This document shows, piece by piece, positions 10,553 to 63,880 of a DNA stretch of 64,000 bases. The stretch comes from Sipunculus nudus (taxonomy: Eukaryota; Annelida; Sipuncula; Golfingiida; Sipunculidae). The notes beneath the pieces are model-generated. The model had not been told where the DNA came from. It searched no databases and worked only from the letters and a program-made list of their open reading frames with translations. The stretch spans positions 36,823,840 through 36,887,839 of the forward strand of contig CM049322.1 in assembly GCA_026874595.1 (NCBI GenBank), given 5' to 3'. Made by a program: the position numbers and the translations under genes. Numbering within the stretch: position 1 is the first letter of the stretch; each line of letters starts with the position of its first letter.

Positions 10553-10584
10553 GCTTTAATCAAGTTCTTGGTGGCCATACAAAT

Positions 10585-11054
10585 TTAAAGGTGCCCATTC
10601 ACCTGGTGTTTTAAAATGAATTTATGTAATTTCTGGCTTCCTCTGTGTATATATTTATGATCTCAGGGTAATTCTGGTTATGAAAAGTCTTATAACGCCT
10701 CTGTGAAGGATGTATGTACTTGTTTATCAACAACCTGTTTGTAAACACGGCATTGTTGACAAATGGGAAAAACATATAACCTAAGGTGGTAGGTTGCATA
10801 TATGCAGAGGGACAAAGTGCACTTGTTGCAAAAAGCCATTTGAAAAGTTCTGGCTTATCTGACTTGCCACCAAACGCCCATGTTGAAATTGTTTTGATTA
10901 CATTGGCGTGCTCCCACATATTATAAACACGTTGATATAAATAAAGCAAGCAGTGGTGTACTGTGATATCCAAGTTTTCTGGCCTATTTTTATAAAAGCC
11001 CCAAGGGATTACCAATGGTTTATAAAGGTCAGATAGGTGATTAAGCCCCTTTAA
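10585..11054 (+). mobile_element. TTAAAGG MITE family, copy A (470 bp)
   Basis: The left end TTAAAGGTGCCCATTCACC is matched by the reverse complement of the right end, TTAAAGGGGCTTAATCACC. The interior shares blocks with copies B to F, such as TTTATCAACAACCTGTTTG, AACCTAAGGTGGTAG and TTCTGGCTTATCT. A 202-codon minus-strand ORF crosses this copy but is not kept in the others, so it is not a gene. TTAA/TA lies at both tips, compatible with a TA- or TTAA-targeting transposase. Confidence 0.85.
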
Positions 11055-11974
11055 AGCAAATTTCCATTCAAAATTTCTATACAGTATATTAAAACTTCTG
11101 ATGAAAATGCTAAACATGGGAGACTCCTGTATGTGGACAGATCTGATCAATGTAAAGGGATTCATGTAATATTCATTGATATATCGTTTGTATTGTCGGT
11201 ATATCATCCCAGATGCCACTGTAATCTGACCATTCTGGGACTCTATCCAAGATTTGCTCCTTTGGGACTTGGCTGAATTGTTCTTACAGGGTATATACCT
11301 ACTGAGTTACATCTATTACCAACCGTCATATCCAAGGACACTCCCGGGGATTCCAAAGGTCAGCACCAGCAGATGAGCAACTCGGCAGACTGTGGTCACA
11401 TATACTTTCCATAAACACCAATGTCACCTTTCTTTAACGTTATGTAGATTGCTACTAAATGCTTCGTAACGCATCATACATTTATCAGTAAAAGCTGGAA
11501 ATCCGATATATATGTTGTATATTGTATGATGGTCACTCATATGATGAAAACTGAATATTTTTCTACCCTGTGATCATATCTTCCAAGGGAATCTTTTAAA
11601 CTATGTGACAACATTAAAATGTACGAAATAAATATAGATATACCCTTGTAAAATTTTATGTCTCTGCATTCACTCTAAGTTCATAGTCTGTGTCCTTGAC
11701 TAAGCTCAAACTCAGTAGCAATAAATTTATGCAAGATAAACAAACCAAATTAACTTACACATGAATGAACAAAACTATGATCTACTGGACAGCATCTATT
11801 TTGACAGCTTCAATGAAAACTAATATGAAAATCAATCTGCTTGAGGAAAAAATAGGTTAATTACCAGCATTTGGTTCTGTGGAAGAATAAAATAAAGCTA
11901 GGTATAAGGCCAAAAAAATAAAAAGGTATGGTTCTAAAGCACTTTTTTCAGAAATCACTGCGGGCAGGCAGTAT
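11055..11974. other. Non-coding DNA
   Basis: No recognised repeat or exon. Confidence 0.3.
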
Positions 11975-12234: not shown

Positions 12235-13390
12235 TAACTAGAATACGGGTAGTTGACAAGCGACTACGTGTATCCGCCAAAATCAGAGTAGGACGGGTGA
12301 AGTGAGGCATGGATTGAGTGGCAAGGGGAAATAGAGTTACATGTGTTACATATAAGAATGGATCTGTGCAACGTAATAATGATTGTAGGTGGTGCCACCT
12401 GTTATTTGAACGAGAAACTATCCAAGATGTATACACATGCAAAATTTCAGGTGGAAAAGTCAAACCACTGCAGAGATATGAGTGCTTTTAACCCAAGGCA
12501 GACAAACAGATGGACGCTGTGCAAAAATTGCTGCAGGTGGTGCCATCATTTTTGTGTACGTTATAAAGCCATCCAAGGGCTACATTTGTGTAAATTTTTT
12601 TTCCTGATTGGTCAAACGGTTCTAGAGATATAAGCATTAATGTCTGCAGCGTGAACGTGAATGTAGGTGGCGCTACCTGTCATAAAATCAAGAAAGCTCT
12701 GTGGGATGTATACGCATGCCAAATTTCAGGTAATTTGGTCAAACCACTGCAGAGATATGAGTGATTTTAACCCAAGGCAGACAAACAGATGGACACTGTG
12801 CAAAACTGGCTGCAGGTGGCACCACCATTTTTGTGTATGTTATAAAGCTATCCAAGGGCTACATTGGTGTAAAAATTTTTTCCCTGATTGGTCGAATGAG
12901 TCCGGAGATATAAGCATGGATGTCTACAGCGTGAATGTAAATGTAGGTGGCGCCACCTGTCATAAAATCAAGAAAGCTATCTAGGATGTATATGCATGCC
13001 GAATTTTAGGTGAATTAGTCGAACCACTGCAGAGAAATGGGTGATTTTAACCCAAGGCAGATGAACAGATGGACACTGTGCAAACATGGTTGCAGGTGGC
13101 GCCACCTTTTTTGTTTATGTTATAAAGCTATCCAAGAGCTACATTTGTGTAAAAAAATTTTTCCTGATCGGTCAAACGGTTCCCGAAATATGTGGGTTTA
13201 TGTGTGGAAACAGACGCACAAACGGACGCTGGGCAGACAGGAAAGGTCAGAGGTCAAGGCCACTTGGTTAGGCACCAGTTCACATGTGACCCGATAATTT
13301 GTGTAAGTTTCGGAAAAATCCGTCCAGTAGTCTCAGAGGAGTCCTCTGGAAACGAATGCCGTGGCGGCCGAACCCGGTCAAAAACATAGT
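12235..13390 (+). repeat. Dimeric (about 140 + 140 bp) tandem repeat with palindromic core
   Basis: Three major units begin at GTAGGTGG near 12,384, 12,662 and 12,942, a period of about 279 bp. Inside each unit a second GCAGGTGG-type start lies about 140 bp on, and the two halves share order (AAGCTAT, GTCAAACC, AGATAT), so the unit is itself an old dimer. The palindrome AGGTGGCGCCACCT is intact at two half-unit starts and slightly altered at others. A leader (12,235-12,383) and a tail with GACGCACAAACGGACGCTGG bound the array. Open frames across the units are by-products of the repeat. Confidence 0.8.
13244..13256 (+). promoter_or_regulatory. DR1 nuclear-receptor-type motif
   Basis: AGGTCA-G-AGGTCA in the tail of the dimeric repeat. 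Confidence 0.25.
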
Positions 13391-13760: not shown

Positions 13761-14978
13761 AACCAGTTGATAAGAATAATGAAGAATGTACGTGATAAAA
13801 TCTTAATACTTTCATTTGGTTTTGAGATTAAGTTTGGGGTTTGAGATTAATATATATATTGTGTGTACTGAGGGTATTAAATTCTGGATGTGATGTAACA
13901 GTGAAAAAAGACAGTTGAAATAAACTCCCCGGTGAAAGAATATGGCTTCCTTTGATTACGGGCCATAAAAAGTACCCTTCCTTTCTAATTATATCTTCCT
14001 TGCTTTGTAAAATGGCCATATTGTGTGAAGTTTATGTGTAACCTTTGGAGAGCACTTTAATATTCTTGTCCAATAAAATATGCCTAGCATTTTTAATCTA
14101 GCTTGAACATTGTTTTTTGTCGAGTTAAAATGCAATGACAGTTGCCGCTTGTAGCCCATATGCTGAATTTTATTAGTGTTTTCTGCTGGCAGATGTAGAC
14201 TTAAAAACAGGTGTAAAACACGAGAGCTACAGGTTGCTTGCTATAAAGGAATACTGTAGTAACTTAAACTCTGGGTTTTCATCAAAAGTGCACCCATTTT
14301 TGGTGATAATTTCCACAAATTGTTATATTTTTCACAGAGTTGACAAGATACTCAACGAGGGAGGGACAATTAAACCAATAAAGCATGAAAAATGGCAGAA
14401 TTAAAACCTGTTCATATTTTATAATCTCCGTGGCTCTTTTTTATTACAGTAATAAAACTGACATGTTGATTTTTACATTGTAAATAAGTTACCATCTCTG
14501 ATAAAGCCAGTGCAGATTTTTTTATTGATTTTCATTAACTCATTGAATCAACAATTTTTTTTAGAAAAAACTACAGATTTTAGGAAGAGATAGCAAAACT
14601 GTTAATTTTAACATACATATCAATTAACCCATGTGCAGTATTATTAACTGTGAATTACTTCTTGATGATCCTTGAACAAAACTTTAAGATAATTAATTAA
14701 GGTCCAGAGTTCACTGGATACATCTTGTGATCTATACAGCCAATCAAATTCCCATAATTTTACCAAAGATAGTCTAAACTTAAGTCTTCAAAATTGTTTC
14801 ATATTGTAAAAAAAAACCATAAGATCTGATTTACAGTAATATTGTTTTCTTTTATTCCAATTAAATATAAAAGTTACAATCATTTTAAGAGACATTCTAA
14901 GTGCACATGATTTTATGATCTACAGAATTTGCATGATTTAGGCCTATTTTGATAAAAGTAAAATATGTATTAAAAATA
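13761..14978. other. AT-rich non-coding DNA
   Basis: No recognised element or exon over about 1.2 kb. Confidence 0.3.
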
Positions 14979-15473
14979 TATTGGTGCCCATTCACTTACC
15001 TTTTGAAAAAGAATTTATGTGAATTCTGGCTTCCTCTGTGTATATATTAATGATCATAAGGGTATTTCTGGTTATGAAAAGTTAATCTTTTAACGCCTAA
15101 GTGAAGGATGTATGAACTTGTTTATCAACAACATGTTTGCAAACACATGGAGCTTTGTTGACAAACAGGAAAAACTTGTAACCTAAGGTGGTAGCTAATG
15201 CATATATGCAGAGTTATAGAAAGGTCACTTGTTCAAAAACACTACTTGCAATGCTCTGGCTTATCTCATTGCTGTCAGATGCCCTTGTTGAATTTATTTT
15301 TTAAGTTTTTATGGCCCCACATGTTATAAAAAAATTAAGACATTAATATCAACAAAACAAGCAGCCTGTGTTCACTGATATCCACTTTTTCCAGCCAATT
15401 CTTATAAAAGCTCAAACTCTGAAGGGGTTATCTTTAGTTTACAATGGTCAGATAGGTGATTGGGTCCCTTTAA
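14979..15473 (+). mobile_element. TTAAAGG MITE family, copy B
   Basis: Left end TTGGTGCCCATTCACTTACC (outer bases decayed); right end AGGTGATTGGGTCCCTTTAA. The interior parallels copy A. The reading frame of copy A is broken here by many indels. Confidence 0.8.
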
Positions 15474-19510: not shown

Positions 19511-21405
19511 GTCGAGGCCCAGATTAGAATCTGGCCCAATTTAAAACTGGGCCAGCCCAGATCAAAATTTTGATTTAGACCGGCCCAGATCAAAATTCTA
19601 ATCTGGGCCAGACCAGTTTTAAACTGGGCCAGCCCAATTTAAAATTTTGATCTGGGCCAGTCCAGATTACAATCCTGTGGTGATAAATTCAGGATTTAAA
19701 TTTGGTCTGGACTGATTTCAAACTGGGCCACCCCAGATTAGAATTTTGATCTGGGCCGGTCAAGTTTACAATCCTGTGGTGGACTGATTTTAAACTAGAA
19801 CAGCCCAGATCAGAATCCTAATCTAATCCAAGGCTAGCTTCAGTTACACTATATTTACCTAGCTGGCCTTTTAATCAATTCAATGAATTTGTAACACATT
19901 GTAGGTCCATAATAATTAATATTTAATGAATTTATTTCATTTTCTATGAAAATATCATTGGTTGGACTCCTGTCATATTAATTTTGTAATTTTACATCTT
20001 ATGTAAATGTCTAAAATGTAAAAATAAAATATTCATGTTAAACATTGGTATTTAACAGCTTAAAACTACAAATATAGCTTGCTGAACATGTACATTAATT
20101 CAACAAATTAAAACAAAATAATAATTATTAATATACATGTTACTCAGTGTTGACTTGTGATTCAAGACCTGTAAATTCAAAATTTTATTTGTTATTGAAG
20201 GTTATTTATCATAAGTTGGGGGTTTTGGTAAGTGATCCCACCCCCCAGTCACCCCTTAAAAAATGTGCACATATTGTAACATTGGATCTAGAACTTATAA
20301 CATACTACATATTATTATTAAGGAAAGAAGGCACTGAAACATCTGTTAAGACACCTGAACTTACATCATTGAAATTAGGTGACTGAAATTTAGCAAATAG
20401 AAAAATATGTATCTAGTGTACATCAATTAGGTTGATATTGGCTAATTTGTGTGAATCATTAACAAGATCATAATGGATTTAGATAGAACAGTGGGAACAA
20501 TATTCACCAATTATCTCATCATTTTAACTACTGAAGGTAGAGAATATTTGTATTGCATCATTTAACTATCTTCAATTTAGATTAGTTATTAGTTATAAGA
20601 TTAGCTTTGTTTACGTTATTAACTCTAAAGTGAAACCTCCATCATGTTTGTCAACCTCTGTAATAAAATCCTAAATTCAATTCTCGCATGTTCACCTCTT
20701 TTTTTGAGACTGCCAAATGTCAGTAATCATATCATTTTCTCAGCTGTGGATTTTCTGCTATTAAAAATTACAGAAATGGTTTCAAAAACCTCTCCCTAGC
20801 CCCATGTTAGGTCACCCAAATGAGCATGAAGACTGAAAAATTACTTTTGTTCAGTTATAAATGAGTAAAGCTGATATTTAATTATGCATGTATATATTTA
20901 ATATTACACATGTAATTTTGATATTCAGAACATATAATTATCTCAGTTAAGTTGATAATTTTGATCAAGTAAGTTAAGTAGATGTCTCAGAACTGATACA
21001 TATTCTAAACTGTGATTAATTATGGTAGTTAGTTTAGGTGTAGCTGATGTGAACTTGCATGCTTTAAGAATAGATGAAACCAATGAAGCACATAACATTT
21101 GCTTGTTAGCTTTTTCCTCACTAAAATATTTTAAATGATCTTGTTCATTATGTGTTTTGTGCCCTTCAAAATGGTGTATCTTGAATAAATGTTAACTGTA
21201 TTATCTGATTTAAGCTGATAAAAATCAAGCAAGCATAAGATTAGATTAGGAATCTGATCTGGGTAGGCCCAGTTTAAAATCAGTCCACCACAGGATTGTA
21301 ATCTTGACTAGCCCAGATCAAAATTCTAATCTTGGCCAGCCCAGTTTAAAATCATTCCAGACCAGATTTAAATCCTGAAGTCATCACCACAGGATTGTAA
21401 TATGG
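19510..21405. mobile_element. Foldback-type element, about 1.9 kb, with long inverted arms
   Basis: The left arm 19,662-19,829 and right arm 21,239-21,405 are reverse complements over about 165 bp, with roughly one difference per 10 bp by eye. The left side is extended outward (19,510-19,661) by extra units built from the same words. Units are themselves near-palindromic, for example GCCCAGATCAAAATTCTAAT next to ATCTGGGCC. The 1.4-kb core (19,830-21,238) is AT-rich with no credible ORF. The design matches foldback transposons: long, internally repetitive inverted arms around a variable centre. Confidence 0.75.
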
Positions 21406-22468
21406 AATATCTAGGAAATGGGTTTACCTGAATATGGCCATATGAGAATTTGGGGACATTTGGTAACAAGGGACCTATGGGTCACTGTGCTCAGCTGACA
21501 ATAACCTTTAAGGTAAAAATCAAAAATAATATCAAATGGAGATAAAGTGTAAGAGGAAGAGGTAATAAAGGCCATGGTTGGTTTATATGATTGGCTTGTA
21601 TTGATGAGCAAGAAATTGTTGCAAAAAATATTTTGTGACCTGACCATGCATTTACTAATGTTGAAACTAAAGCATGTGAGCAGTTTGTGAACAAATGATC
21701 TGTACTAATACCATGATCATTAGTTGGTTTTTCGATTAACTGTTGACATTTCAGTAGTTTACACATTTTTTCAATTGAATCTATTTTTTTGTATAATATA
21801 AATTATTAAATATATATGTATTTTTTTTATGAAATGTATACAGTTGAAATATAGCTAATTAACAACATAAAACAGGGCAAAAAAAGCCTGATCTCAAATT
21901 CTGCTGAGGCAGGAAAATAATGAACAAATGTTTGTATTAAATCCTCATTTTTTTATCACATCAATTATTTTCTAATTTAAGTTTATATTTCTATACATTT
22001 CCAATTTAACATATATATCTGAATATAAAAGTTGATTCATAATTCTCAATTGCATCATCATAAATCTCAATCTTGTCAGATAACACCACATCATGCATAC
22101 AAATGTTTATTTATTTTTTACCACAAAAATATATTTTTTAAAGCTGCAAAACAATAAATATCTAAAAATAATTCTTGACTTAGATTTCACACTTTTTAAT
22201 TGTGTTTTTATTTATCCATAATGTGCTTCATATTTTATGATAATTTAAGCATACTGATGGGTTCAATTATATTTGTTAAAATCATTTAAAAGAAAAATTG
22301 ATTTCTTTAAAAATGCTACATTACACAACATTGCATCTTCTGGATTACACCTTGAATTTTTTTTTAAAGGAAAGTTTTTGCATATCGGAGTGGAAACAGC
22401 ATTACAATTAAGGAGATACAGTGAAAACAATAACAATTACTGCATAACACTTGGTGGGTTGGATTTGC
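21406..22468. other. AT-rich non-coding DNA
   Basis: AAGGGACCTATGGGTCACTG and TGCTCAGCTGA at about 21,470-21,497 look like the edge of a common dispersed repeat; nothing else is recognised. Confidence 0.3.
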
Positions 22469-28984: not shown

Positions 28985-29215
28985 TGTTGTGTCTGCACAT
29001 ACATAATCTCTCTTTTCTTTTTTTCTCTTTCTCTCATTCTCTCTTTCTTTCTCTCTCTTTCTTTTTGTCTTTTTCTCTTTCTTTTTTCTCTCTCTTTCTT
29101 TCTCTTTCTCTTTCTCTCTCTCTCTCTCTCTCTGAGTATGCTTGACAAATATACCGACAAATGCACATACTTAAATCTCTCCTTCTCTCTTGTTCTCTAT
29201 TTCTCTCCCTGTGTG
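28985..29215. repeat. Polypyrimidine (CT/CTTT)n tract
   Basis: Nearly pure C/T from about 29,007 to 29,133, a second CT-rich patch near 29,178-29,208, then (TG)n. The Arg/Lys/Glu-rich minus ORF here is an artefact of the tract. Confidence 0.9.
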
Positions 29216-31272: not shown

Positions 31273-31633
31273 TTAAAGGGGCCCAATCACCTATCTGACC
31301 TTTAAAAACTAAAGGTAATCCCTTGGAGCTTTTATATAAATAGACCAGAAAATGTGGATATCACCACAAAAAGACTGCTTGTTTTGTTTGTATCAACATG
31401 TTTATAATATTTTGGGGCTGCCAAAATAAAACAAATTCAACAAGGGTATCTGGCAGCAAGAAGATTAGCCAGAGCTTTGAAAACGGGGTTTTGCAACAAG
31501 TGTCCTTTGTACCTTCACATATATGCAACCTACCACCTTTGGTTACATGTTTTTCTCATTTGTCAACATTGCTGTGTTTACAAACATGTTGTTGATAAAC
31601 ACAATTCTTATTCATAAGGTAGGGCACCTTTAA
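31273..31633 (-). mobile_element. TTAAAGG MITE family, copy C (361 bp)
   Basis: Left end TTAAAGGGGCCCAATCACC; right end GGGCACCTTTAA. Interior blocks match copy A in reverse orientation, but about 100 bp near one end is missing. Confidence 0.85.
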
Positions 31634-40668: not shown

Positions 40669-41635
40669 ATGACTGTTGCAGGGCTTCGTCAAATCTCTAT
40701 TAAAGGTTTGTGCTCAGTGAATGTTGTATGCCTAAGCCTACTGAATGCTATAAGCCTTGGCCAAGTGATTGTTGCAGGGCTGACCCTAATGAATGTTGCA
40801 GGGCCTAGTCATATGGGTGCTGCAAAGCTCAGCCTATTGACATTTGCAGGGCAGAGGTTAAAGAATATTGCAGACCTGAGCCAAGTGGCTTTTGTCAGCC
40901 TGAGCCTCGATCATGATTGTTGCAGGGCTGTGCCTCGTGTGGTGCAGGGATGAGCCTCGTGGGTGTTGCAGTGCTGAGCTAATGGATGTTGCAATGTTGA
41001 GCCTCATGTCTGCTGCAGTGCTAAGCCTCCTGACTGTTGCAGTGCTGAGCCTTATGAATTTTGCAATGCAGAGCCTCCTGGCTGTTGCAGGGCTGAGCCT
41101 TATGATTGTTTGTAGGGCTGAGCCTCATGACTGTTTGCAGGGCTGAGCCTCATGACTGTTGCAGGAGTGTGCCTGATGACTGCAGCAGTGCTGAGCCTCA
41201 TGAATATTGCAAGGCAGAGCCTCATGGCTGTTACAGGGCTGTGCCTCATGACTGTTGCTCAGCTGAGCCTTGTGACACAGTTACAGAACTGACCCTCATG
41301 GTTGTTGCAGGGCTGTGCCTCATGTGTTGTGCAGAGCTGAGCCTCATGGTTGTTGCAGGGCTGTACTTCATGTGTTGTGCAGAGCTGAGCCTGATGGGTG
41401 CAGCAGTTTTGAGCCGAATGGCTGTTGCAAGGCTGAGCCTCATAACTTTTGAAGTGCTGAGGTTCATGACTGTTGCAATGCTGAGCCTAATGAATGTTGC
41501 AGTGATGAACCAAATGACTGTTGCAAGACAGAGCCTCATGGCTGTTGTAGTGCTCAGCCCATAAATGTTACAGATCTGAGCCTAATGATGATTGACTGTT
41601 GCAGGGCTGAGCCTCATGACTGTTGCAGAGACTGC
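40669..41635 (+). repeat. 24-bp minisatellite, about 40 units
   Basis: The consensus unit is GACTGTTGCAGGGCTGAG plus CCTCAT. Because 24 is a multiple of 3, frames stay open for long stretches (octapeptides TVAGLSLM or DCCRAEPH on plus, MRLSPATV on minus). Small indels move the opening from one frame to another (40,669-40,953, 40,913-41,146, 41,106-41,564), which argues against a translated repeat protein. Units vary by a few bases. Confidence 0.9.
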
Positions 41636-46746: not shown

Positions 46747-47191
46747 TTAAAGGTGTCCTTTCATCTACCTTTTTATATGGAATTTATGTGATTTCTGCTT
46801 CCTTTGTATATACTAATGATCTAAGGGTAATTTGGTTGTTTTCATAATGCCTTTTTGAATTATGGATGTTTGAACTGGTTTATCAACATCATGTTTGTAA
46901 ATAGAGCAAACAGGAAAAACCTGTAATCTAAGGTGGTAGGTTGCATATTAATTGCAGAGGTAAAAAAGGTCACTTGTTGCAAAAAGTTGTTTGCAAAGCT
47001 CTGGCTTATCTGTCTTGCTGCCAGACGCCCTTGTTAAATTTGTTTGATTATTTTGGCAGGCCCCCACTTATTATAAACAAACCAAGCAGCCTGTGGGGAA
47101 TGATAACTACGTTTTCTGGTTTATTTTTATAAACATTTCAAGGGCATACCTTTAGTTTATAAAAGTCAGATAGGTGACTGGGCCCCTTTAA
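46747..47191 (+). mobile_element. TTAAAGG MITE family, copy F (445 bp)
   Basis: Left TTAAAGGTGTCCTTTCATCT; right AGGTGACTGGGCCCCTTTAA. The interior is colinear with copy A (ATCTAAGGTGGTAGGTTGCA, GCTCTGGCTTATCTG). Confidence 0.85.
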
Positions 47192-50120: not shown

Positions 50121-50879
50121 ATTGTTCGCAGGTGCATATCTGACACTGCCTAAATTTTATCTATGGAAGAAATTAAGACAAAATCCCATATAGTCTTAGA
50201 CAAGTTAAATCCTTCTACATCTATAAATTTTTTTTTTTAAATAAATTTTATTGTGGAAAAAAAATTATACAATACACGTTTCATACATTATTGTACACAA
50301 TTACATCAAATACAATGTAAAAAATTTATACAAAGCACATTTCCTGGATAATATTTCAACTGTACTTCAAATTTTAGACTGTGGATTATGTTTCTTAAAA
50401 TTTATGATTATATTTATGGGGATTAAAATATCATTTTGTTCATCTAACTGTAATGACTTTCAATTTTCATTAAAAAATTCTAATGTTATATATTTATTAC
50501 CAACTATATATATATATATCTATAGATTTAATTCTAACAATGGACAAAACATAATTTAATGACCTCATTTCATGTAAACTACTTATTTGTTCTTGAAGTT
50601 CATTTCTTGCAAAGAACTTGATACTTCATTTTAAATAAAAATACTAATATAAGAAAAAAGCATTTTTCAAATCTTTTGAAATTTGAAAATAAAAAATGTA
50701 TTATACCATTCACTTGATGACCCAGAGTCAGTGAAGCCTTACTGTACATGTGAACAACCGAAGGAGATAGGGATGTTCTAGATGGCTACTGGTATGAATA
50801 TGGAATTGGTACAAGCATTAATTATCGCTTCGGTGTACTCAGATCAACCAATATACCTGTACTGAATTAGAGCCAGTTA
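50121..50879. other. AT-rich DNA left of the LTR element
   Basis: No recognised feature. Confidence 0.3.
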
Positions 50880-50883
50880 ATAT

Positions 50884-51599
50884 TGGTACAGAGGTGGGGT
50901 TGGGGATGTCCCCACCTGTATCACATACGGTTGCTGATGCGCGTGGCAGACAATGTTCCAAGACCAGTTTGATGATAGAAGTCTTTATTCAATAGCAAGC
51001 GGTCTGGGACCGTCTCTCTCTCTCTCTCTGACTCACTCTCTCTCTCTGACTCACTCTCTCTGACTCTCAGCGCGCACTACAGATAGTTTTGTTACAGAGC
51101 TTACACGTGACATATGAGATGTACATATCCATATTTCTGCATTTCGTCATAAAAGCTAAACCTTATTTGATGACTCAAAGTAGGTCACAATTACATCAGA
51201 GTTATAAGTGTACCTCCTACCTTCCGTGGGATCTGATTGGACAACAGTTCTATGGAAAATCCCAAGTCTGACCTGACATACATCCAGTTATAGACTGACC
51301 TACAAGTCCTATTTCCAAACTCTATAAACATAATCTGCCTGCCTCATCATAAAAACCAATTTAGAGCTAATTTGTGAGAGTACATTTAGGCTCTACAAAC
51401 ATACTGAATTGCCATTAGATACTTGGTCGTCTGATGAACAGTAATTTCCTTTGGCTCTGTCTGAATATCAGAAAAGACTGAAACCGTAATTGATTTTTAT
51501 TTGTTTCTTGAGTAATTTTAGATCTTAATTAATGAAATATTGAAATATTCCTTTAAATATGTGTTAAGTCACATATACACCCTTTCTTACTCCATAACA
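50884..51599 (-). repeat. 3' LTR (716 bp)
   Basis: In minus orientation: TGTTATGG start; CCAAT at 51,236-51,240; TTATAA at 51,202-51,207; E-box CACGTG at 51,104-51,109; a GA-rich microsatellite at 51,013-51,067; AATAAA at 50,984-50,989; then a short U5 with an 8-bp hairpin stem AGGTGGGG/CCCCACCT at 50,892-50,917. Transcription would start about 30 bp past TATAA. Confidence 0.88.
50902..50913 (-). promoter_or_regulatory. kappaB-like palindrome in LTR U5
   Basis: GGGGACATCCCC on the minus strand contains GGGACATCCC, which fits the Rel/NF-kB consensus GGGRNWYYCC. It is also the loop side of the U5 hairpin. It occurs in both LTRs. Function is unproven. Confidence 0.2.
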
Positions 51600-54495
51600 T
51601 ATCCCTCTGGTATTCAGAATGAGGCTCCAGCCTCATGGGCTAAGTCGGAGAAAATTTAGTTATTGCAAGAAATATAACTGGGATACAGATGACAGAAATA
51701 CATAATGTGTAAAGATCAAGATATACTGCATAAGTCTGAATTAACTGCGAGAACAGTAGTCATAACAGTGGATAGAACTATATATTTAGCTAGCACAAGG
51801 GAAATGTGATGGATATATGTCGGTAGAGAGTAAAGTATTACATCACTGAGGTGTAATAGATTGCACATATCAGTATAGATGTGAAGTACATGAACATATG
51901 TCACAGTTCCAGATGTAACAATGTAAGGAATGAGGAAGTGCCTATTTTAAATGATGTTGGATTACAACAACAGTGCTTAAGCTATCCAATATAAGCTGAG
52001 AAAAAGCATATATAAATCTATAGCTATACCTATATGTTCTAAAGACAATTTTTTTTTGTGAATTGACAATCCTAAACAATATCTAGAAGATAAAATGCTG
52101 ATTTATAAGGAATCAGGAACAACATCGCAACCATGATGACATTATTTGACATCCGAAGATGACAACATCAGATTATATAAGTATGACAGCATCTAAATAG
52201 TATTAATGAATAAACATCTTAATAGATATGATTATAGCATCGTACACAGATTATACAAGTACTGTGCATACTGAATAAGCAAAGGAATAAGTCAAAGTAT
52301 GTGAACCATTCTAGCATACAGTAAGTGATGTTACATAAAGATGTTCTGTCAAACAGTCATGTGCATTTAAAAAAAAATGACAAGCGATTGGCTAACAATG
52401 CCTGACATTAGTCTATACCTGTAGCTAATCAAAATATTTCCACTGAGAAATGGATAATAAATTCCTTATATGACAAGGTGTATATACTCTTGTGCCTAAG
52501 AGTTTAACATATACACATGTACATGACTATCTGCTCTGTGTGTTGATCAGTACCAATGATTCAAAATACATCTTGGCTTTCATACTTACCATTGGGACAA
52601 GTTGACTTGTGAATAATGGAAGGTTGATTTGCTACTCCTTTAGCAAAACACAACTGGTGTACCTTACCAGCGGATAAGTACATGACAGAATGAGGTCATT
52701 CCTAACAATAGAGGAATGTTGTACATATATTCCCATTTATTAGCCAATTTTTGTGCATAAACAAGGCGAAATATATGTGAAAATGTGATGATAATGAAAA
52801 TAATTCTCTGACAGGTGCATGTATCGATCTAGACCATATGGATTTTGATGGTAATTTTATTGTGAGCTCATTATGTGTAAGATCAAACATACATCTGTAG
52901 AGTGATGATTTAAAATAAATGAAAAATGTTAATGTTTGAAATCCTTGTCACTCCACATCTTGGTTAATGGGTTATCAGTATCATGAATGCAGTGACCAGA
53001 ATGCATTTGCTCATGAAACATGTCTGTCATAGTACGCGTAAATGTGAATTCCTATGAGAAGAATTCCTGTGCTAACCTACATATCTTGCCTGGCAATTCC
53101 AGCTATTAATGAGGTTAACCATATCAAACCCTTGTTTGAGGCAATAATGTGACCACAGGTCAGTGCATTATTGACTTTTGGAGTCATCACACTCCCCAGT
53201 TTGTCCAATTCCCTATATATTGGGGGGCTTCCCAAGAACCCGTGTTTGAGGACCAAACTGTAACAATTGAAAATAAGCATCGCATTGTGCATTGGTGACA
53301 CAATGGGCTACCATTCCATTAAATTTATAGCCAAGAGAGCATTATGATAACCATTGATTTGGTATGGAACAACACATGAGAAAATCTCAATATAAATGAA
53401 AGATAACATGCTGATGGTTTTGCATATTGCTCTACTCTAGGTATTCTTGAATGTAAATCAATAGTCATTTGTGACATTGCATATTAACGTCTGAGATAGA
53501 CATTACTGTATCAAATCTAACATTGACAGTTCGACACCTTTTGCTGTGGTCTTGTAAACTTATTCCTAACCATATCAATAAGATAGACACACTATAAATT
53601 ATATCATTTTACAATTATGACACATCAATAAGAGAAAGTTATAGATTACTACACACATATTTTTTTTTGTTTACAACATATACATGCAAAATGTTCTGAC
53701 ATGCCCCAAATTTTACATTGGGCATGTAAAATTCAGAGTCTCTGGTTTTGTTTTTCATTACCTCAGGAAATCATGTCTTCTTTGGGTCTTCTGTGGTCTT
53801 CTCTGCTGACTTCATTTTTTCCTGGAGTCATGGTATGGGAGGTGATGCAGAAGATAGCGGTAGAACGGCAAATCTGCTTCTAGAAGTAGCAGGAACATAG
53901 CGAGGAACTTGTTGTGAGATAACACACAGTGCACGTGGTATGGCCAGTAGTATTGTTGACATAGGCCCAAAGCTGGCTTGTCCTGATATTGATTTTTTTT
54001 TTATGTGGCTGGTCAGGAACAATGATGATCTTAGGTTGAGATATCACAGCACTTTTTGAAGTGAAAAAAGTCATTTTTGCAACTTGAAGTCACGGTTAAA
54101 GCAATATGCTGATTCACAGTGTCCTTTTGGTTTAAAGATACAGAGAGAGTCTTTGATCTTCTTAAGCAGAGTACTGAGAAACTGCAGCCAAGTTAAAGTT
54201 TGAAGAGAGAGTTCTTAGCAAAAGTGTGATACCTTCAGCAGCAGAGATGACATTCTTGATGTTAGGCTGTGATTCTGCAGACATCTAGGTTGAAGTTCCA
54301 GTGCAGTTGTGAGAAATGGGAGACCAGTCAATGGCATCTGTGGCTGTGAGGGGGGGATCCTCATTTTCACTCCAACTGGCAGCATTGTCGGTTTTTCTGG
54401 TGCTAAGTGCTGGAAGTGAATCCTGGTTCATCCACCATAATGATACAGGACCCGGTCTCCACCAAAATGATACGTTACCCGGTTCTCCACCATTA
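51600..54495 (-). other. Internal region of the LTR element, no gag-pol
   Basis: 2,896 bp. The end next to the 3' LTR has the purine-rich tract AGAGGGATA (minus, 51,600-51,608). The end next to the 5' LTR has three direct repeats of about 28 bp (54,413-54,495), each with TGGTGGA and a CC-GG word; the first, TGGTGGAGAACCGGG, lies 3 bases inside the LTR where a primer-binding site is expected. The tRNA is not identified. The longest minus frames are 60-84 codons without motifs. A small inverted repeat ACATGCCC/GGGCATGT is at 53,699-53,727. Confidence 0.75.
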
Positions 54496-55211
54496 TGATA
54501 CAGAGGTGGGGTTGGGGATGTCCCCACCTGTATCACATACGGTTGCTGATGCGCGTGGCAGACAATGTTCCAAGACCAGTTTGATGATAGAAGTCTTTAT
54601 TCAATAGCAAGCGGTCTGGGACCGTCTCTCTCTCTCTCTCTGACTCACTCTCTCTCTCTGACTCACTCTCTCTGACTCTCAGCGCGCACTACAGATAGTT
54701 TTGTTACAGAGCTTACACGTGACATATGAGATGTACATATCCATATTTCTGCATTTCGTCATAAAAGCTAAACCTTATTTGATGACTCAAAGTAGGTCAC
54801 AATTACATCAGAGTTATAAGTGTACCTCCTACCTTCCGTGGGATCTGATTGGACAACAGTTCTATGGAAAATCCCAAGTCTGACCTGACATACATCCAGT
54901 TATAGACTGACCTACAAGTCCTATTTCCAAACTCTATAAACATAATCTGCCTGCCTCATCATAAAAACCAATTTAGAGCTAATTTGTGAGAGTACATTTA
55001 GGCTCTACAAACATACTGAATTGCCATTAGATACTTGGTCGTCTGATGAACAGTAATTTCCTTTGGCTCTGTCTGAATATCAGAAAAGACTGAAACCGTA
55101 ATTGATTTTTATTTGTTTCTTGAGTAATTTTAGATCTTAATTAATGAAATATTGAAATATTCCTTTAAATATGTGTTAAGTCACATATACACCCTTTCTT
55201 ACTCCATAACA
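54496..55211 (-). repeat. 5' LTR (716 bp)
   Basis: Same sequence as 50,884-51,599, shifted by 3,612 bp. In minus orientation it starts at 55,211 with TGTTATGG and ends at 54,496 with TATCA. Confidence 0.88.
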
Positions 55212-55298
55212 ATATATTATTAATCAAATTGGGAATTAAGAATGAGATTAATTTCAGTTATTGCATTTACAGGAATTTGCATGACAACAGACAGTTAA

Positions 55299-55470
55299 TA
55301 CAGTGAAATCTGTGTTAAGAGTCCATCCAAGGGACCGGCCAAAAGCCGTCTTGATTCACAGGTGGCCATATAACACAGGGCAGTTATAATTAATGTGAAT
55401 GCTCCAGAGAGTTTCTTATTAGACAGGTGGTCTTAAAAGACAGGTAGCCTTTCAGACAGGTTCAACTATA
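55299..55470. mobile_element. Pogo/Tigger-like MITE
   Basis: Left TACAGTGAAATCTGTGTTAA; reverse complement of the right end TATAGTTGAACCTGTCTGAA. Imperfect inverted ends of about 20 bp with TA tips. Internal ACAGGTGGTC words recur. Confidence 0.6.
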
Positions 55471-59855: not shown

Positions 59856-60169
59856 CTTTGTACAGGATAAGACCCAAGTAATAAACAGATATATAGAGAC
59901 AACATTCTCTTTGTAGTACAGGTATATTATGGTGTCCAACATAAAAACTCCATTAGTCACTTGATAAACCAATAAACAATGAATAACGGGGCAATATTAA
60001 TATCAAAAAAGGACATTTACAAGGATGTTAAATAGGCCTACAGAAATACATACAATCAAATGCATATAATTCAAGGGATGTTGAAAATAATGGGAGTTAC
60101 TGAAAAACAGTCTGGATACATTTTCATAAAACCCTGTAGATACTGTTACTACTTCCATGTATGTTTGCT
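59856..60169. other. Non-coding DNA
   Basis: No recognised feature. Confidence 0.3.
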
Positions 60170-61722
60170 AAATCCTGTAAATACATATATATATAAATCC
60201 TGTATATATACATACAGATAAATCCTCTAGTTACATATAGATAAATATTGTAGATACATCTTCTTAATCTGAAGTTACATATAGATAAATCCTGTAGATA
60301 CATACTAAATCTGGTAGATTCATACTAAATCTGGTAGATACATACAGATGAACACTGTAGATACATCTTCTTAATCTGTAGATACATATAGATAAATCCT
60401 GTAGATACATACTAAATCTGGTAGATACATACTAAATCTGGTAGATACATACAGATGAACACTGTAGATACATCTTCTTAATCTGTAGATACATATAGAT
60501 AAATCCTGTAGATACATACTAAATCTGGTAGATACATACTAAATCTGGTAGATACATACAGATGAACACTGTAGATACATCTTCTTAATCTGTAGATACA
60601 TATAGATAAATCCTGTAGATACATACTAAATCTGGTAGATACATACTAAATCTGGTAGATACATACAGATGACCACTGTAGATACATCTTCTTAGTCCTG
60701 TAGATAGATATAGATAAATACTGTAGACTCATATAGATAAATCATGTAGATACATACAGATAATACCTGTACTAAATCCTTTAGGTACATATAGATAAAT
60801 CCTGTAGATACATACTTAATCCTGTAGATACATAGAGATAAATACTGCAGATACATCTTCCAAATCCTATAGATATGTATAGATAAATATTGTAGATACA
60901 TATGGATAAATCCTGTAGATACATACTAAATCCTTTAGGTACATATAGATAAATCATGTAGATACATACAGATAATACCTGTACTAAATCCTTTAGGTAC
61001 ATATAGATAAATCCTGTAGATACATACTTAATCCTGTAGATACATATGGATAAATCTTGTACATACATATAGATAATTCCTGCAGTGCATGATCAACAGA
61101 TAAATCCTGTAGACACATATAAATTAATCCTTTAGATACATATAAATAAAACCTGTAGATGCATACTAAATCCTGTAGATAGATATAGATAAATACTGTA
61201 GACTCATATAGATAAATCATGTAGATACATACAGATAATACCTGTACTAAATCCTTTAGGTACATATAGATAAATCCTGTAGATACATACTTAATCCTGT
61301 AGATACATATGGATAAATCTTGTACATACATATAGATAATTCCTGCAGTGCATGATCAACAGATAAATCCTGTAGACACATATAAATTAATCCTTTAGAT
61401 ACATATAAATAAAACCTGTAGATGCATACTAAATCCTGTAGATAGATATAGATAAATACTGTAGACTCATATAGATAAATCATGTAGATACATACAGATA
61501 ATACCTGTACTAAATCCTTTAGGTACATATAGATAAATCCTGTAGATACATACTTAATCCTGTAGATACATAGAGATAAATACTGCAGATACATCTTCCA
61601 AATCCTATAGATATGTATAGATAAATATTGTAGATACATATGGATAAATCCTGTAGATACATACTAAATCCTGTAGAAACAAATAGATAAATACTGTAGA
61701 TACATTTAGATTAATAAAAATA
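60170..61722 (+). repeat. 1.5-kb minisatellite with two higher-order repeats
   Basis: The basic units of about 20-23 bp are AATCCTGTAGATACATACTA and CTGTAGATACATATAGATAA. In 60,259-60,690 they form four copies of a 107-108-bp higher-order unit marked by CATCTTCTTAATCTG. In 60,930-61,500 a 263-bp higher-order unit is marked by TGCAGTGCATGATCAAC (61,081 and 61,344). A block at about 60,700-60,901 recurs at 61,438-61,639 (offset 738). Minus ORFs with repeated STGFIYMYLKDL are artefacts; 263 is not a multiple of 3. Confidence 0.9.
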
Positions 61723-62491
61723 TACACTAACAAACAAAAGGCCAATCAAGCTAAATAATAGAAGACTGGTAGTCGCTATAGCTCACCAGACTGAATCAGC
61801 TTGCCTTAGTTACAAATCTCCGACCATGTCCTGTTTTATGATCATTAAATGAAAATGTATCACACAATATATCATACTTTCATAAAATATTCTCAATTGC
61901 TTTTTTTCCCTCACAGAAGTACAAATTTAATCTAAAATTTGAATACAAATGTTATACTTAATTTATTTTATTTTATGGTAGTAAGAATTCTGACAGTATA
62001 CCACATATTTTATAATATATTTCTGCATTTAAAAAAAGATATGACTGCATTGGAAAGTATCCTGGTTGAATGACACTTTAAATCTAATTAAAACTTCATA
62101 AGTAATCTGCCTTCCAGTGATATGTGTCTTAGATAACACTTAAATACAAATTTCTTTTAAAAATAATAGCTTTTATAACTTTCTTACATTATTATCCAAT
62201 TACCAAGCAGGTAATCATTAACTGCGGGTCTTACATTTTGCAGAAAATTACCAGCTTTTAATTAGTCTCTTAGTGAAAACTGATACATTAGCAAAATTGC
62301 TGACACCTTCAGTCTTCAGTATATTAAACTGAAGGTGTTATATTTCAAAGAGGCTTTTGGACTAAGTTTTCATGAATTCCTAACTTAATTACTGCCATAA
62401 TGCTGATATATATCACAATTCTCCCTCCCAAGGCAAGAATGTTACTTAAGCATTTCAGACTACATACCAAATCAGCATTGGTATCCTTGGT
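61723..62491 (+). repeat. Direct duplication, left copy
   Basis: From ACACTAACAAACAAAAGGCC to ACCAAATCAGCATTG this parallels 63,077-63,815. Anchor CTCCGACCATGTCCTGTTTT sits at 61,818 and 63,166, an offset of about 1,348 bp. The copy resumes at 62,756 (GGGTCATTTTTTATACATTAGGGTC) after an insertion. Confidence 0.85.
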
Positions 62492-63076: not shown

Positions 63077-63880
63077 CCACTAGCAAACAAAAGACCAAGC
63101 TAATTAATAAAGAGTGGTAGTCACTATGGCTTGCCAGACTGAATCAGCTAGCCTTAGTTACAAATCTCCGACCATGTCCTGTTTTATAATCATTAAATGA
63201 AAGAGTATCACACATATCATACTTTCATAAAATATTTCTCAATTGCTTGTTTTGGTTAATTTAATCACAAATTTGAATAAAAATGTGATAATTTATTTTT
63301 TTAAGGTTTTATGGTAGTATGAATTCCGACAGTATACCACATATATTAAGATATTTTTGCATATATATAAAGATATGTCTGCACTGGAAAGTATCCTTGA
63401 TGAATGACACTTTAAATCTAATTTTAAATTCATAAGTAAACTACCAAGAATTATTAGGCTTCTTACATTACACCAAAATAGAGATTTCTTTTAAAAATCA
63501 TAGCTTATATAACTGTCTTACATTATTCTCCAACTACCAGGCAGGTTAGCTTTACTGCAGTTGTAACCTCTGCAGAAAATTACCACCTTATAATTAGTCT
63601 CTAAGTTGAAAATGATACAATAGCAAAACTGCTGACATCAGAAAACTACAGCTGGTAAACTTCAGGTGTTACAATTCGAAGAGGTTTTTGGACTTAAGTT
63701 TTAATGAATTCCTAACTTAATTACTGCCATAATGCTAATATATTTTATTTCTCCCTGGAGAGGCAAGCATGGCACACAAGTACTTGCAGCATTTCAGACT
63801 ATATACCAAATCATCATTGAGGGTCAAAGGGTCATATTAATATTCATTAGGGTCAAAGGTAATGGATATTTTCTCCTGAA
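63077..63880 (+). repeat. Direct duplication, right copy (uninterrupted)
   Basis: Colinear with 61,723-62,491 plus 62,756-62,806, with many small indels and substitutions, so the duplication is not very recent. Confidence 0.85.

Follow-up and report, generated by a model that had tools for sequence, protein, structure and literature searches.

A recently inserted LTR retrotransposon of LARD-like size without recognisable genes in a 64-kb stretch of the Sipunculus nudus genome

The window considered here, the whole 64,000-nucleotide stretch of Sipunculus nudus DNA that was analyzed, contains what we take, with a probability of about 0.9, to be one recent insertion of an LTR retrotransposon that is non-autonomous and is transcribed leftward from the LTR at its right-hand end (54496-55211). 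The full element is 4,328 bp long, of which 2,896 bp are interior; its size is LARD-like, and recognisable genes are absent in this copy. It probably borrowed the enzymes of another element. The features are collected in Table 1.

TABLE 1 Features of the element and its borders, by position in the 64,000-nucleotide window
Feature	Position	Strand	Basis
Target-site duplication ATAT, left copy	50880..50883		Equal 4-mers at the outer ends
3' LTR, 716 bp	50884..51599	-	Pairwise identity; outer end has the sole mismatch (50886)
Interior, 2,896 bp	51600..54495	-	No Pfam match; wholly internal open frames of at most 83 aa
Polypurine tract AGAGGGA	51602..51608	-	Two bases (TA) from the 3' LTR
Tandem repeat, 27-base unit, 2.8 copies	54425..54503	-	Tandem Repeats Finder, 78% matches
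Putative primer-binding site TGGTGGAGAACCGGG	54478..54492	-	Three bases (TAA) from the 5' LTR
5' LTR, 716 bp	54496..55211	-	Pairwise identity
Inverted repeat, end of U5	54496..54535	-	Predicted hairpin in short-range fold
AATAAA, likely poly(A) signal	54596..54601	-	Motif in LTR
TATAA, possible TATA box	54814..54818	-	Motif in LTR
CCAAT box	54848..54852	-	Motif in LTR
Target-site duplication ATAT, right copy	55212..55215		Equal 4-mers at the outer ends

Terminal repeats, orientation, and cis signals

The two direct repeats align without gaps and are 99.86% identical. Their sole mismatch, G at 50886 versus A at 54498, is the third base from one end, which bears out the claim of an earlier, sequence-only reading that the LTRs agree except for one position at the edge. 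On the plus strand both LTRs start with TG and finish with CA, and these direct terminal repeats, together with a short target-site duplication (TSD) at the outer ends and a purine tract next to the 3' LTR, are the hallmarks of an LTR retrotransposon that we found here.

The inner edges indicate the direction in which the element is to be read. On the minus strand the CA of the right-hand repeat is followed by TAA and then by a TGG-type putative primer-binding site, of which the first nine bases match what we take to be the complement of the tRNA-Ala 3' end before the match breaks off; no host tRNAs were found within the window. At the other end of the interior, on the same strand, the sequence AGAGGGA-TA abuts the TG of the left LTR. 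On the plus strand, both a primer site and a purine tract are missing from the corresponding inner edges. The element thus lies on the minus strand, and the right-hand copy is therefore its 5' LTR. Tf1/sushi elements prime themselves, and we rejected this mode of priming here because no 8- to 15-base stretch of the first 24 interior bases is complementary to the LTR.

CCAAT, TATAA, AATAAA, and the purine tract had previously been read as standing in the correct order on the minus strand. All four are indeed present, but TATAA and AATAAA each recur in the LTR on that strand, at 54904-54900 and 55113-55108 respectively, so the three LTR motifs are weak evidence, and the purine tract is short, at 7 bases, in an interior that has 11 runs of at least 7 purines.

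Interior

The same reading had described the interior as lacking any gag, protease, reverse transcriptase, or integrase frame, and the profile searches agree. When all six frames of the interior were compared whole with Pfam, with stops entered as X, none of the six matched any family, and the genes of an autonomous Gypsy, Copia, or BEL element (gag, protease, reverse transcriptase, RNase H, and integrase) accordingly went undetected by Pfam in those frames. Of the stop-to-stop frames, 36 reach 40 aa or more, and 20 of these were also run singly; two gave matches below the cut-off, to UxuA (E 0.23) and to a coronavirus viroporin model (E 0.18), which we dismissed as chance, their scores being far beneath the cut-offs. 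A 103-aa frame spanning an LTR edge had no Pfam match either. Thus, no recognisable remnant of gag-pol was detected by Pfam in the six frames or in the 20 of 36 frames run singly. The longest wholly internal frame is of a length expected by chance, since the longest frames in 500 dinucleotide shuffles measured 94 +/- 17 aa and 73% of them reached at least 83 aa, and three-base periodicity in the interior is 0.84 versus 0.77 +/- 0.45 in 200 shuffles.

Structured RNAs were equally lacking among the families searched. Rfam gave no match at gathering scores anywhere in the window, which disposes of a hammerhead ribozyme, and a run on 50700-55400 gave two matches to other families, with E values of 1.1 and 4.2, that are far below gathering scores and look like chance.

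A gene-less interior with ordinary ends could also have arisen once only, if an autonomous element lost gag-pol, filled the space between its LTRs with unrelated host DNA, moved a single time, and founded no family. We regard such a history as rather unlikely while giving it some weight. The window contains no further copy of the LTR, the best other match being a CT-rich stretch at 29087-29135, and the observed/expected CpG ratio of the interior (0.26) is near that of the window (0.29) and below that of the LTR (0.46), as a host-derived filling might show. Composition is weak evidence, however, and the edges of the interior retain an intact primer site and purine tract.

Searches in distant collections were uninformative. 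A 29-base LTR pattern had no matches in contig collections of prokaryotes and of viruses, zeros that say little since these collections may omit the window's own genome. A pattern made of the LTR end and the primer site picked out 18 IMG/VR stretches; the element's top BLAST hit among them, with an E value of 0.037, fell outside the pattern and was dismissed as chance.

Age and target site

One difference in 716 bases amounts to an LTR divergence of 0.14%, which corresponds to about 350,000, 230,000, or 70,000 years at 2e-9, 3e-9, or 1e-8 substitutions per base and year, respectively; these rates are assumed rather than measured in the host, and with a single event the range is very wide. The single mismatch nonetheless supports the earlier view of the insertion as recent.

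Gene conversion or the assembly could have raised the identity of the LTRs. If one set of reads had served for both LTRs, or if conversion had homogenized them, near-identity across 716 bp would follow and the element would look too young. We consider this very unlikely, as the sequences beyond the two repeats are unlike each other and one TSD is common to the outer ends; for the same reasons the insertion itself is real at any age.

Among 59,664 positions compared at the TSD spacing within the window, 392 (0.66%) show equal 4-mers, and a match of ATAT by chance is unlikely but not negligible. A 5-base duplication is unsupported, the outer ends reading AATAT and ATATA. Taken singly, the LTRs have unequal flanks (ATAT/TATC for the left, ATTA/ATAT for the right), with ATAT common to the outer ends only. 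An interior without recognisable genes would also suit host DNA flanked by two solo LTRs or by the copies of a simple segmental duplication, but we reject this arrangement as exceedingly improbable on the TSD pattern, because neither repeat has a TSD of its own while the outer ends share one, and the inner edges bear a primer site and a purine tract.

Tandem unit and U5 hairpin

A tandem repeat runs from the interior into the end of the 5' LTR. On the minus strand its unit consists of the LTR-end sequence followed by TGGTGGA, which resembles a primer site, and this combination is present three times. The sequence TATCATNNTGGTGGA occurs exactly three times in the window, always within this tandem repeat; with up to two mismatches there are 8 matches versus 2.98 expected, a number reached in 1 of 100 shuffles.

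The end of U5 may form a strong hairpin. A 56-nt stretch has a predicted fold of -26.1 kcal/mol (z -4.0), matched in stability by 1 of 200 shuffles, and the hairpin is retained in the predicted folds of two other stretch lengths; a 121-nt stretch that extends over the tandem repeat is predicted to fold differently (z -2.3, 5 of 200 shuffles equally stable). The sole mismatch between the LTRs sits in one arm of this hairpin. The base that allows pairing is retained in the 5' LTR, and the second and third tandem units share TATCA with it, so it is probably the 3' LTR that mutated, once the element had inserted.

The triplicated LTR end and primer site might be a working part rather than debris, offering several landing places for the tRNA beside the U5 hairpin and thereby helping a gene-less element to compete for borrowed reverse transcriptase, but we hold this to be unlikely. 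The outer end of the 3' LTR matches the expectation for use of the first primer site.

Proposed mode of movement

As a young non-autonomous retrotransposon, the element would carry its promoter, poly(A) signals, primer site, and purine tract in cis and would receive its enzymes in trans. Its RNA would comprise R, U5, the tRNA primer site, a long non-coding interior, and the polypurine tract. Priming would be by a tRNA with a tRNA-Ala-like 3' end, and packaging, reverse transcription, and integration would be carried out by enzymes made elsewhere, with the integrase presumably trimming TA(A) bases outside CA and TA outside TG. The donor would most likely be a Ty3/Gypsy-type element, since animal Helenus elements, which give 4-bp duplications, are described as sharing primer-site similarity with Gypsy only (PMC10886601).

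It had been argued that recent insertion requires an active autonomous partner to be present elsewhere in the genome. This is overstated: enzymes are required only at the time of insertion, and their source may since have died, been lost, or share little sequence with the element, so a present-day partner does not follow. Comparable elements have indeed been reported without a related autonomous one in the accounts given in PMC3532108, PMC6934838, and PMC3286476.

Relation to known non-coding LTR elements

Gene-less passenger LTR elements are already known in plants and animals, with comparable non-coding ones described in publications on mosquitoes, ants, bivalves, and plants, and the present element is a further example. 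It is often unsettled which enzymes move such elements, and a young copy whose ends are intact, with a primer site and a 4-bp TSD, narrows the donor candidates and would make a good bait for a partner in the host genome; apart from that, the element is ordinary.

LARDs are larger than about 4 kb and form families of many copies that conserve their non-coding interior; the element, at 4,328 bp and with no coding match, falls within their range in both size and lack of coding sequence. Barley-type LARDs have LTRs of several kb. As characterized in PMC3532108 and PMC1940013, LARDs resemble the present element in having ordinary LTR-element ends and a long interior without coding capability; those described there are plant elements.

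Among animals, 38 non-coding LTR elements (cqUNK) that contain tandem repeats and lack a known master copy have been reported for Culex quinquefasciatus, in lengths of 1,629-14,602 bp (PMC3286476). They are like the present element in having LTRs more than 98% identical, a primer site, a purine tract, a TSD, and no coding sequence, and cqUNK_41 is entered with an Ala primer site (PMC3286476). They differ in coming from a mosquito, in TSDs that are mostly 5 bases, and in repeats that are usually larger and lie deeper inside, a comparison made by description (PMC3286476). The same account describes cqgypsy_1, in which 26 bases of the 5' LTR are duplicated about an unusual primer region (PMC3286476); the triplicated unit at 54425-54503 bears a distant resemblance to this.

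PbTRIM of a harvester ant shares a 4-bp TSD, most commonly ATAT, as well as a non-coding interior, a primer site, and a purine tract, and its autonomous relative was reported as not found; it differs in a total length of 480-781 bp and LTRs of 152-184 bp (PMC3532108). The bivalve biv-TRIM is likewise a non-coding LTR-type element, of molluscs, for which a partner is reported as not found, but its repeats are 202-218 bp, its interior is 77-80 bp, and its primer site is described as unclear (PMC6934838). TRIMs are defined there as less than 1,000 bp long and as having terminal repeats that measure 100-250 bp (PMC6934838), and the present element, at 4,328 bp with 716-bp LTRs, is excluded from them by size.

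Animal members of Helenus are described as giving 4-bp TSDs and as having primer sites that resemble those of Gypsy elements only, as well as a tRNA-like sequence in the LTR (PMC10886601), whereas none was detected in the 716-bp LTR. Rfam and ARAGORN found no LTR sequence derived from tRNA or 5S rRNA, although a strongly decayed one could escape them, and Helenus, Ajax, and Cassandra were rejected on this ground.

Other repeats in the window

The window, with a GC content of 0.347, contains several further repeats. A dispersed family has at least four diverged copies (10578-11306, 14971-15416, 31273-31601, and 46844-47045), one of which holds a 231-aa open frame (10611-11306, minus strand) with no Pfam match at E values up to 1; it may represent a family of genes or a transposon that has no name yet. 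A GGGCCAGCCCAGATCAAAATT-rich repeat is present in direct and inverted copies at 19513-19845 and 21222-21406, with arms of 185 nt that are 86% complementary and have 1,376 nt between them. At 4-117 there is a MITE-like inverted repeat of about 27 bases, with arms about 60 bases apart, which adjoins a 32-base tandem array at 120-329. Other tandem repeats have a 280-base unit in about 3 copies (12313-13178) and a 24-base unit in about 35 copies, the latter a minisatellite at 40676-41628 that encloses a 152-aa open frame on the plus strand and a 111-aa one on the minus strand. A large TAGATACATA-type array at 60169-61715 shows higher-order repeats of 107 and 263 bases, the 263-base ones being 98-99% alike, and a direct repeat with its copies about 1.34 kb apart (61762-62220 and 63110-63554) consists of two blocks that are 91% and 80% alike.
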